Shown here: piece after piece, positions 75 to 4,957 of the stretch
How positions within the stretch are numbered: position 1 is the first letter of the stretch
Layout: every line of letters begins with the position of its first letter
Assembly: GCA_905181955.1 (NCBI GenBank)
Contig: CAJJAC010000001.1
Location: forward strand, 1-64,000
Length of the DNA stretch: 64,000 nucleotides
DNA from: SAR86 cluster bacterium SAR86B
GTDB lineage: Bacteria > Pseudomonadota > Gammaproteobacteria > Magnimaribacterales > D2472
Reading direction: 5' to 3'
Notes under the pieces: model-generated
Seen by the model: only the letters and a program-made list of their open reading frames with translations
Databases searched by the model: none
Told to the model about the DNA's origin: nothing
Translations under genes and position numbers: made by a program

Positions 75-165
75 CAGCTCTCCCAGTTGTAACTTAGTAG
101 GCTTTCTTTTTACTCCAGGCATTTCTATAGGCCACCAAGATTTTGGTTTATACTTTTGGAATGAA
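75..165. repeat. 91 bp direct repeat, copy 1; ends at the start codon of the esterase ORF
   Basis: cagctctcccagttgtaacttagtagg...ggtttatacttttggaatgaa; matches 1098-1188 with 3 mismatches by eye. Confidence 0.95.
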
Positions 166-1000
166 AAACTTAAAAATGAGTAAATTCAGCATAGAGAATA
201 CAGAACAGTTAGAAATCTTTAGCGAAGAAATAAATCAAAGATTTCTAATCAACGTGGGATTTCCTCCTAACTACTCAAAGGAGAATAAGAAATATCCAGT
301 TGTCTATGTAACTGATGCAGGATCAAATTTCGGTGGACTCATGAGCTCTTTACCATTGATGCAATTGGTAAACGATTTGCCCCATTTTATTTTAGTTGGC
401 ATTGATTATGTAAGTAATAATTTAAACGATTTTATGAGCCTTAGGAATAGAGATCTAACGCCAACTAATGATTCTGTTTGGATGACTAATCAAAAAGATA
501 TGTACAAGATATTTGGAGATTTACCTGAGGTAGAGGCTGGCGGTGCAAAAGAGTTCTTAGAATTTATAAATAATAAAGTTAAACCAATCATAAACGATAG
601 TTATCATGTCGATGCGTCAGACCAGACTTATTGTGGATTTTCTTTAGGTGGTTTATTTGGCCTTTTTACTTTATTTACTTCTCCTAAATCATTCAATAGA
701 TACGTAATAGGGAGTCCTTCTATTTGGTGGGATGATAGGCATATTCTAGAAGTCGAAAAAGAATATTCAGAGAACAATAAACACTTACCTGCTAAAATAT
801 TCTTATCAATTGGGAGTCTAGAAGAAGAAGAAGAAGGAATCGATTTTAAAATGGTTACAAATGTAAAATCCTTATCCAAAACTTTAAAAAAGAGAAATTA
901 CCAAGGGTTGACAGTAAATACTGCCATACTTGAAGACGAGACTCATTGTTCGGGCATTGCGGCGACTTTAAATCGCGGTCTGAGGAATGTCTTTTCTTAG
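161..1000 (+). CDS. alpha/beta hydrolase, putative esterase (esterase D / IroE-like)
   Basis: ORF 143..1000; more likely ATG at 161 or 176; GFSLGGLFGLF nucleophile elbow, YVIGSPSIWWD, C-terminal H in ETHCSGI. Confidence 0.75.
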   Translation: MKNLKMSKFSIENTEQLEIFSEEINQRFLINVGFPPNYSKENKKYPVVYVTDAGSNFGGLMSSLPLMQLVNDLPHFILVGIDYVSNNLNDFMSLRNRDLTPTNDSVWMTNQKDMYKIFGDLPEVEAGGAKEFLEFINNKVKPIINDSYHVDASDQTYCGFSLGGLFGLFTLFTSPKSFNRYVIGSPSIWWDDRHILEVEKEYSENNKHLPAKIFLSIGSLEEEEEGIDFKMVTNVKSLSKTLKKRNYQGLTVNTAILEDETHCSGIAATLNRGLRNVFS

Positions 1001-1097
1001 TTTTTATTTTCTTAATAAGAAATCAAAAATAAGATTTTAGATGGCCGGGTATTTACTTTCGAGATAAATTGTAGGGGAGAAAAAGATGAATGACGAA

Positions 1098-1188
1098 CAG
1101 CTCTCCCAGTCGTAACTTAGTAGGCTTTCTTTTTACTCCAGGCTTTTCTATAGGCCACCAAGATTTTGGTTTATGCTTTTGGAATGAA
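1098..1188. repeat. 91 bp direct repeat, copy 2; ends at the start codon of a 31-aa ORF
   Basis: cagctctcccagtcgtaacttagtagg...ggtttatgcttttggaatgaa; 88/91 identical to 75-165. Confidence 0.95.
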
Positions 1189-1279
1189 TTTAAAAAACCC
1201 TGATACTAAAACACTAATAATCGTTTTCATAGCATTCATGGCTTTAGGAGAGTTTTTTGCTGACTTTGTTTTACTTTAA
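1184..1279 (+). CDS. putative small membrane peptide (31 aa)
   Basis: MNLKNPDTKTLIIVFIAFMALGEFFADFVLL; ATG lies at the end of repeat copy 2; single hydrophobic segment. Confidence 0.35.
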   Translation: MNLKNPDTKTLIIVFIAFMALGEFFADFVLL

Positions 1280-1303
1280 GCCTTTGGAATATAAAAATTA
1301 TTC

Positions 1304-2458
1304 TTGCTCAAATTCTCTGCAAGGAATATTATTTACTTAGATTTTTTTCCTTTTAAAAGGGGGGTTGTGAATGTGGATTTTAAGATTAATAAAAATTCTT
1401 TAAAAATCTATTTAAATAGCAAAGTCGAGTATGAGCTTCCGCACTTATGGATGCGAGATAACTGCTCTTGTGAAGAGTGTAGAGTCTTTCAAACGCAGGA
1501 AAAAAGATTTATGCTTAATTCTGTTTCATCTGATCTAAAACCGGATAATGTATATATAGAAGGTAGTAATATCCATATTTCCTGGCCTGACAAACACAAG
1601 ACATCTATAAATTTTCAAGATATTAAATCTTTTCACCATCAACAAAAGCCTAAATTTTTTTTATGGAATAAAGATTTCACACCAGACTATTATGACTGGA
1701 ATGATTTTTTACATAATAATCACACTGCAATAGATGCTATAGAGACATTTATAACTAAAGGCGCTATATGTATTAAAGACGCTCCCCAAACCCCAAATAC
1801 ATTAGAGGATCTTGCACCAAGACTAGGCCCTCTAAGAGAGGTCTTATTTGAGCGCATTCATAATGTTTCATTAGATGGGCATGTATATAATATTGCTCAC
1901 ACCTCTTTAGAGGTTCCTCCTCATAATGATTTTGCAAGCTATTCTTGGCCTCCAAGCGTTCAAGCGCTCCACATGCTGAATAATGAGTGTGCTGGAGGAG
2001 AGACTATGATTGTTGATGGCTTGTCCGTATTAGCGGATTTAAGAAATGACCATCCTAATTTCTTTGATATTTTAACAACCTTTCCTGTTCCCTTTAGAGA
2101 ATTTGATGAAATAAATGAAACTTTTACTGAAGAACCAATTGTAAGACTTAATTCTGCAAATAAAGTAATTGGATTCCGATTCTCTAATCAGCTCATGCAA
2201 ATGATTAATCCTCTAAAAAAGGATTTAGATATATTTTACAAGGCATATCACGAGCTATGCACTAGAGTGAATAGTAAAAAATATAAATCAATATTTAGAC
2301 TTAATGCAGGCCATATACTATTAGTTTCAGGTCATAGGGTTCTTCATGGCAGAACAGAGTTTAAACCAAATGGTAAGCGCCATCTTCAAGATGCATACTA
2401 TGAAATGGATAATGTAGAAAATAATTTGGTTGTTTGTAAAAGATTTCGGAGCAAATAG
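1304..2458 (+). CDS. TauD/TfdA-family dioxygenase, gamma-butyrobetaine hydroxylase-like
   Basis: N-terminal HLWMRDNCSCEEC metal-binding segment and H-x-D (PHNDF) plus late GHRVLHGR motif; GTG at 1367 is a more plausible start. Confidence 0.8.
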   Translation: MLKFSARNIIYLDFFPFKRGVVNVDFKINKNSLKIYLNSKVEYELPHLWMRDNCSCEECRVFQTQEKRFMLNSVSSDLKPDNVYIEGSNIHISWPDKHKTSINFQDIKSFHHQQKPKFFLWNKDFTPDYYDWNDFLHNNHTAIDAIETFITKGAICIKDAPQTPNTLEDLAPRLGPLREVLFERIHNVSLDGHVYNIAHTSLEVPPHNDFASYSWPPSVQALHMLNNECAGGETMIVDGLSVLADLRNDHPNFFDILTTFPVPFREFDEINETFTEEPIVRLNSANKVIGFRFSNQLMQMINPLKKDLDIFYKAYHELCTRVNSKKYKSIFRLNAGHILLVSGHRVLHGRTEFKPNGKRHLQDAYYEMDNVENNLVVCKRFRSK

Positions 2459-2517
2459 GTTGTTAAATAAAGTTGATATAATAAATACCTTCATGGATTT
2501 AATACAGGACACACCAA

Positions 2518-3102
2518 ATGAATTTTGATAAACAGTTTGATGAAACAGACTTGGTAGAAGTTGAAGATGTTCCAATATTTAAAGCTAGTGAGCAAGAAAT
2601 AGAGCAATTCTTAAAAGACCTTTACGGTTATTGTGTTCGTTTACATAATCATATTAAAGCTTATTCTTATCTTGGATTTACTCACGAAGAACAAACTGAA
2701 CTCTTTACATATTTAATTAAAAACTCGAGTGAACCCCAATATTGCCTATTGAGAAACATAACTGTTGCTAGAGCTATAAATAAGGATGACGACCCTTCTG
2801 GGAATGCTGTAGCTGAAGTATTCCCTGAGATGGAGTCTCTTAAGGCTTATGTTAAATCATTAAAAGCTATTACCTATAAAGATCTTCTTGTAAGGAGTGC
2901 AGCTGAGTATCTCTATATGGATGGTTTAACGGTTAATGAAATTACAGATGAACTAATAGCAGAGAAGTTTTTAGATGAATATAGTAAAGATGATGACTCA
3001 TTGCTTGATAATCATAGAAAGCGAATACGTAGATACATTTCCTCATTCAAAGATTTTGATATAATAATTGACGATCCTAAAGCGGAAAATTATCTTAATT
3101 AA
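2518..3102 (+). CDS. uncharacterised protein, paralog A of 4412..4957
   Basis: 194-aa ORF sharing S-x-EPQY-x2-LR, [AE]Y-x-[MG]D-[LM]TV-x-EI and Y[IV]SSF with 4412..4957. Confidence 0.8.
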   Translation: MNFDKQFDETDLVEVEDVPIFKASEQEIEQFLKDLYGYCVRLHNHIKAYSYLGFTHEEQTELFTYLIKNSSEPQYCLLRNITVARAINKDDDPSGNAVAEVFPEMESLKAYVKSLKAITYKDLLVRSAAEYLYMDGLTVNEITDELIAEKFLDEYSKDDDSLLDNHRKRIRRYISSFKDFDIIIDDPKAENYLN

Positions 3103-3115
3103 AAAAGGTGAGATT

Positions 3116-3199
3116 ATGAATAATTGGTGGAAAAATTTTATGTATGGCGTTCTTGCTGGAGTAATAACAATCGTAATATTAGAATTCTTTGTCTTATAA
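3116..3199 (+). CDS. putative small membrane peptide (27 aa)
   Basis: MNNWWKNFMYGVLAGVITIVILEFFVL; preceded by AAGGTGAG, 13 nt after the paralog A stop. Confidence 0.5.
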   Translation: MNNWWKNFMYGVLAGVITIVILEFFVL

Positions 3200-3215
3200 A
3201 TACGAATAAAAAGAT

Positions 3216-3317
3216 ATGAAAAAAGAAGAAGAATCAGTTGGAATAATAAAGCTTTTAGGTATTTTATTTCTTAGCGTATCTGTTGTTGGATTTCTTTTTA
3301 TTAAGATATTCGCATAA
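3216..3317 (+). CDS. putative small membrane peptide (33 aa)
   Basis: MKKEEESVGIIKLLGILFLSVSVVGFLFIKIFA; charged N-terminus then TM-like stretch. Confidence 0.45.
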   Translation: MKKEEESVGIIKLLGILFLSVSVVGFLFIKIFA

Positions 3318-4309: not shown

Positions 4310-4408
4310 ATGGAGTTTTATAAGAAGTATGGTCAACTTATTAGCTACACTGTTGTCTTAGCTTTTGTTATTTATGTTTATAGGTATTTAAATAACTTCG
4401 GAGTCTGA
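4310..4408 (+). CDS. putative small membrane peptide (32 aa)
   Basis: MEFYKKYGQLISYTVVLAFVIYVYRYLNNFGV; stop is 4 nt before paralog B ATG. Confidence 0.4.
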   Translation: MEFYKKYGQLISYTVVLAFVIYVYRYLNNFGV

Positions 4409-4411
4409 TAA

Positions 4412-4957
4412 ATGACAAAACAAACCAAGCCACAAGTTTTAAAGCTTTCCCTAGTTCCCCATATACAAACAGGCGAATCTGTTGATCAGTATATTGAAAA
4501 GCTTAAAGAATTTTGTGTTGCATTTCATACCGAAGTTAAAGATATTCAATTTAATTCAGAAAAAGAAAAAGCTTCGTATTTTATGTGGCTAATGATTAAT
4601 TCTAATGAGCCTCAGTATCAAGCATTAAGACTTATATTTCAGTTTCAAAAAGAGAAAGCAGGGGACTCAGAGATATTAGATAGTATTTTTGCCCAAGTTG
4701 AATTATTAGATGTCTACAGAAAAAAGGTTGATGCTCAATCATTTGAAGATCGTGCTGTAAGAACAATGGCTGAGGTCTACTACTGGGGGGATATGACTGT
4801 TAAAGAAATTGTTGTACAACTTGTAAGCATTAAATTATTACCTGAGCGTGACAATGATAATAACTCGGCATTTGATACCCATCTACAACGAATTACTCAA
4901 TACGTGAGCTCATTTCCAAATTTCAATCCTGATATACGAAGAAGCCAAATAAAGTAG
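4412..4957 (+). CDS. uncharacterised protein, paralog B of 2518..3102
   Basis: 181-aa ORF; NSNEPQYQALR, MAEVYYWGDMTVKEI, YVSSFPNFN shared with paralog A. Confidence 0.8.
   Translation: MTKQTKPQVLKLSLVPHIQTGESVDQYIEKLKEFCVAFHTEVKDIQFNSEKEKASYFMWLMINSNEPQYQALRLIFQFQKEKAGDSEILDSIFAQVELLDVYRKKVDAQSFEDRAVRTMAEVYYWGDMTVKEIVVQLVSIKLLPERDNDNNSAFDTHLQRITQYVSSFPNFNPDIRRSQIK

Follow-up and report, generated by a model that had tools for sequence, protein, structure and literature searches.

We analysed a window of 64,000 nucleotides at the start of contig CAJJAC010000001.1 of SAR86 cluster bacterium SAR86B. A repeat search within the window returned a 91-nt direct repeat whose copies match at 88 of 91 positions (97% identity, three differences) with a spacing of 1023, confirming both the position and the near-identity of the repeat that the first-pass annotation had described around an esterase gene (Table 1). 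A 32-nt piece of the repeat has exactly two matches in the window, compared to none in 100 shuffles, and the pair has a BLAST E value of 1e-30 within the 358 kb of the window's genome that was sampled, where intergenic repeats of this kind are few. Both copies share the 3' end GGAATGAA and, as had also been claimed, carry an ATG there (161-163 and 1184-1186); the first starts the esterase and the second starts a 31-aa peptide. Copy 1 begins 74 bases from the contig start, and since its upstream context is nearly absent, little can be inferred in that direction. Both copies are also present in the separate assembly FRAM18_bin311, and an assembly artefact of the window is therefore unlikely.

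Table 1. Repeat copies, putative promoter elements, and genes at the locus (positions in the window)
Feature	Position	Strand	Comment
Repeat copy 1	75..165	+	Upstream of esterase; orthologous copy in FRAM18_bin311 (G001) C2:369-456
Conserved 35-nt core, copy 1 (ACTCCAGG...GATTTTGG)	113..147	+	About -48 to -14 from the ATG; 32/35 identical to AG-319-N19
Putative -10 box TATACT	149..154	+	12 nt before the ATG at 161; genome-wide spacing peak
Putative esterase, PF00756	161..1000	+	279 aa when counted from the putative leaderless ATG; another in-frame ATG lies at 176
Repeat copy 2	1098..1188	+	Precedes the 31-aa peptide gene and the TauD gene; 91/91 identical in FRAM18_bin311 C2:1381-1471
Conserved 35-nt core, copy 2	1136..1170	+	33/35 identical to AG-319-N19 (G002)
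Putative -10 box TATGCT	1172..1177	+	12 nt before the ATG at 1184
31-aa hydrophobic peptide gene	1184..1279	+	Product MNLKNPDTKTLIIVFIAFMALGEFFADFVLL; similar to a 43-aa peptide encoded at contig position 119865
TauD / gamma-butyrobetaine hydroxylase-like dioxygenase	1370..2458	+	Exact start uncertain; longest frame 1304-2458
194-aa protein	2518..3102	+	Final gene of the block that G003/G004 lack at the tRNA-Ser site

Among the 41 genomes searched, close relatives of the esterase occur only in the window's genome (G000) and FRAM18_bin311, and more distant relatives (38-41%) come from another family of the same order. The esterase of FRAM18_bin311 appears to be broken. Because a decarboxylase gene is likewise split in that assembly, sequencing error is as likely as decay. 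Elsewhere in the same genome, a 43-aa peptide matches the 31-aa one at 42% over 24 residues (E 0.015), and short frames in G004 and G003 resemble it weakly; these similarities do no more than suggest a family. Very short hydrophobic genes (about 27-33 aa) stand in runs at 3111-3317 and 4310-4408 of the window, and such genes recur near tRNA-Ser in G003 and G004. Three proteins of 181-203 aa (window 2518-3102 and 4412-4957; L009 6100-6711) look like paralogues by eye, with similar stretches near their C-terminal ends.

Searching the genome and its relatives, as the first-pass annotation had proposed, turned up further copies of the repeat. The genus comparison comprised five genomes, and the relatives sharing the repeat are the SAR86 cluster bacteria FRAM18_bin311 and AG-319-N19. 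In FRAM18_bin311, both copies surround the same esterase and show the same three differences between copy 1 and copy 2 as in the window; the duplication therefore predates the split of these two lineages. On the window's own contig, a shorter copy at 118461-118513 lies upstream of an Orn/DAP/Arg decarboxylase gene (PF02784) and matches the 91-bp repeat over about 54-66 bp at 86-87%. Its ATG is lost (AATAAA), and its -10-like box lies 36 nt before the decarboxylase ATG. The region holding this copy differs in FRAM18_bin311. The shorter copy in AG-319-N19 lies beside tRNA-Ser(TGA), before a 77-aa open reading frame (ORF), with 12 nt between box and ATG. On the minus strand of contig C1, a decayed copy (120866-120925) lies upstream of a gene that by eye is glutathione-transferase-like (GST-like); this copy is fused with another repeat, TTTTTTAGCTTATACTTTTGTCTATGAGTAAAAACC, called the second repeat below. 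A sequence model, R1, run over 151 genomes left a clean gap below the known sites; the match upstream of the GST-like gene was accepted as a copy because it is joined to the second repeat. The weaker R1 matches that were read look coding-like by eye and were taken as chance.

Downstream of every distinct copy lies a gene start in the same direction (esterase, peptide/TauD, decarboxylase, 77-aa ORF, and GST-like gene), and the segment common to copies in unrelated contexts covers about 112-165, or about -49 to +4, some 54 bp. The other genomes searched in the family and order gave no strong copy, and neither did viral contigs or GTDB contigs scanned with one strict pattern, a scan that may omit the window's own genome. 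The refuting case put forward in the first-pass annotation, a recent random duplication without other copies, does not apply: other copies exist, and the flanking pair is common to two assemblies with the same fixed differences.

The second repeat (72 bp, 88%) occurs at C1 120866-120925 (minus) and, in the opposite orientation, at C1 119818-119889. Its TATACT box precedes an ATG by 13 nt; this repeat opens the 43-aa peptide gene at one site and a 13-aa remnant upstream of the GST-like gene at the other. A third short, mostly intergenic repeat lies at C1 118075-118144 and 119758-119825 (70 bp, 77%). The 3-kb stretch around the decarboxylase gene is seemingly a local patch of rearranged upstream regions.

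Both copies in the window contain a TANNNT motif whose first T is exactly 12 nt before the ATG (149/161 and 1172/1184). Bacterial TA-like signals about 12 bp upstream of the start have been read as marking leaderless genes (Zheng et al., PMC3160421), and such -10 boxes have been tested in Deinococcus (Deinococcus-Thermus leaderless genes; PMC12340547). In the 358 kb of the window's genome, TATAMT stands at exactly 12 nt in 5 of the 137 genes with an upstream gap. Without copy 1, four genes have this arrangement versus 0.26 expected from the region further upstream of genes (P ~1.5e-4). No -35 box is recognisable in either copy, and a scan with the sigma-70 consensus listed neither. The 35-nt core is 91-94% identical between the window's genome and AG-319-N19, and the 5' flank is about 50% identical (18/38); longer coding-region alignments between members of the genus show about 72-83%. 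Against a coding rate of 80%, the conservation of the core is marginal (P 0.06 for 32/35 and 0.02 for 33/35), and recent exchange between the lineages would also explain it.

Because the -10 box lies at 12 nt, the shared core is promoter sized, and the copies precede unrelated genes in the same orientation, a duplicated promoter, one of the possibilities raised in the first-pass annotation, is the best-supported explanation. We consider it probable that the 91-bp repeat is a duplicated putative promoter region ending at the start codon. Promoter activity and leaderless transcripts are what we infer from the -10 box and its spacing. However, this arrangement is not kept throughout: the decarboxylase copy is without the ATG, and the one before the GST-like gene is broken and joined to the second repeat.

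A structured cis-regulatory RNA or leader common to several genes would also place several copies upstream of metabolic genes, and the decarboxylase copy does fold better than its shuffles (z -2.7). However, neither strand of the remaining copies outperforms its shuffles in folding (z -0.2 to 0.9, near zero in all copies but the decarboxylase one), and Rfam returned no match at the gathering threshold or at E up to 1. If the -10 box is used, its position 12 nt before the ATG leaves no space for a leader, and the geometry suggests a 5' UTR that is very short or missing. For the inverted repeat in the core, 187, 462, and 102 of 500 shuffles were as good, so that it lacks significance. The leader suggested earlier thus finds no support, and we regard a structured RNA as very improbable; the duplicated promoter is the best reading of the two. 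With no known family and no stable conserved fold, the repeat was not assigned to the riboswitches or structured RNA leaders. A palindromic operator in the core (TATAGGCCA-N9-TGGTTTATA) was an attractive candidate but was not significant compared to shuffles.

The surroundings of the repeat point to tRNA-Ser(TGA). In G003 and G004, which represent two related species, the genes of window positions 3.1-10.5 kb lie close beside this tRNA gene and the genes of contig C12, and the block at 75-3100 (esterase, peptide, TauD, and 194-aa protein) has no match at the tRNA-Ser site of these two genomes. The first gene beside tRNA-Ser is different in each species, and in every case (G000/G001, G002, G003, and G004) a TATAMTTTT box precedes the ATG of that gene by 12-13 nt. 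In the window's genome, both the window's contig and C12 end near the tRNA-Ser spot, and the junction is beyond reach. On contig C12 (L063 748-1737), a gene named by eye as alpha/beta-hydrolase-like adjoins tRNA-Ser and looks foreign, with 49% GC in a genome of 33% GC; the same gene occurs in FRAM18_bin311, and a different hydrolase-like gene occurs in G002-G004. Between tRNA-Ser and the first gene in L064, L066, and L008, a short word that varies by genome (GTAGTCG, GTGGTAG, and GTGGACTT) occurs twice in direct and once in inverted orientation, as integrase arm sites might look.

Such a location could mean that the copies border a small cassette as its att sites or are what is left of a mobile element at a tRNA-Ser hotspot, or, in a variant of this explanation, that they are the decayed end of a minus-strand gene. 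Copies adjoin tRNA-Ser(TGA) in AG-319-N19 or a fragment of it in FRAM18_bin311, where 39 bp of the tRNA-Ser 5' half are repeated close to the beginning of copy 1's contig, and the minus strand of the copies reads by eye as M/V-A-Y/F-R-K/N-A/T-W-S, extended to 35 aa in AG-319-N19. However, only the esterase lies between the repeats, with no integrase or transposase, the copy 118 kb away is unexplained by att sites, and no viral contig and no strong phage match was found. The 35-aa frame matches no PHROG, lacks a convincing relative, and is cut by stops in the other copies, and minus-strand coding was rejected. The pair was not classed as a site-specific recombination cassette, as reading up to the contig end found no recombinase between the copies. 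We judge this explanation improbable.

A stronger alternative concerns the origin of the second copy. A segment of promoter plus esterase may have joined the chromosome by homologous recombination at a pre-existing promoter, giving the order promoter-esterase-promoter-peptide; the repeat, itself immobile, would then mark the junctions, and the esterase might later be lost through it. The exact flanking of the esterase by the repeats, the restriction of the close esterase to the window's genome and FRAM18_bin311 among the 41 genomes searched, and the absence of the esterase block from G003 and G004 all favor such an event. However, it does not account for the partial copies that precede the decarboxylase gene and the GST-like gene, and no genome was found in which, at this site, one copy leads straight to the peptide and TauD genes without the esterase, nor was an empty site for the repeat copies seen in the genomes compared. 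Insertion of the esterase by a duplication event, as proposed in the first-pass annotation, therefore fits the anatomy of the locus but lacks its one-copy site. Recombination is compatible with a duplicated promoter, and we give it somewhat less than an even chance.

Matus-Garcia, Nijveen, and van Passel reportedly described mobile promoters and promoter propagation in prokaryotes in 2012. The SAR86 copies resemble mobile promoters in being short, near-identical, non-coding, promoter-like repeats before non-homologous genes without a transposase of their own, with 91 bp at 97% before the esterase and peptide and about 54-66 bp at 86-87% before the decarboxylase. They differ in being few, clustered at two sites, and inclusive of the start codon. 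The 2012 work on mobile promoters is cited in PMC8049555. Leaderless genes (PMC3160421; PMC12340547) share the TANNNT motif starting 12 nt upstream of the ATG, a spacing enriched in this genome; in contrast to them, the putative leaderless promoter is itself duplicated here. Like REPIN/REP and MITE-type repeats, the SAR86 repeat is short, non-coding, and intergenic with several copies per genome, but it has no significant palindrome, no terminal inverted repeats were seen, and its copies are very few and in fixed orientation to the downstream gene. The repeat thus resembles a further case of known kinds, mobile promoters and leaderless geometry. The copying of this putative promoter is real but fairly ordinary. 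The literature search found no paper in which SAR86 and leaderless appear together.

If the duplicated promoter operates as its layout suggests, the -10 box (TATACT or TATGCT) 12 nt before the ATG would set transcription to start at or next to the ATG. The resulting mRNAs would be leaderless or nearly so, one for the esterase and one for the 31-aa membrane-type peptide, and the latter would probably continue into the TauD dioxygenase gene. The promoter would have been copied before the lineages of the window and FRAM18_bin311 split, and shorter pieces would have been duplicated or retained in front of other genes, both far away in the genome and in AG-319-N19; both the direction and the mechanism of this copying are what we infer. 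Its site is beside tRNA-Ser(TGA), a place of gene turnover in the genus. There, a compact leaderless promoter might act as a ready-made switch through which any gene that lands is expressed, and this switch, together with its start codon, might have been copied to further accessory genes, a proposal that we put forward as unlikely although conceivable.

Because SAR86 genomes are small, the few intergenic repeats that they keep are informative. Copying a promoter and start codon together would be a simple route by which newly acquired genes come under existing control, and if the transcript starts match, the locus would serve as a worked example of an uncultured marine group re-using a promoter.
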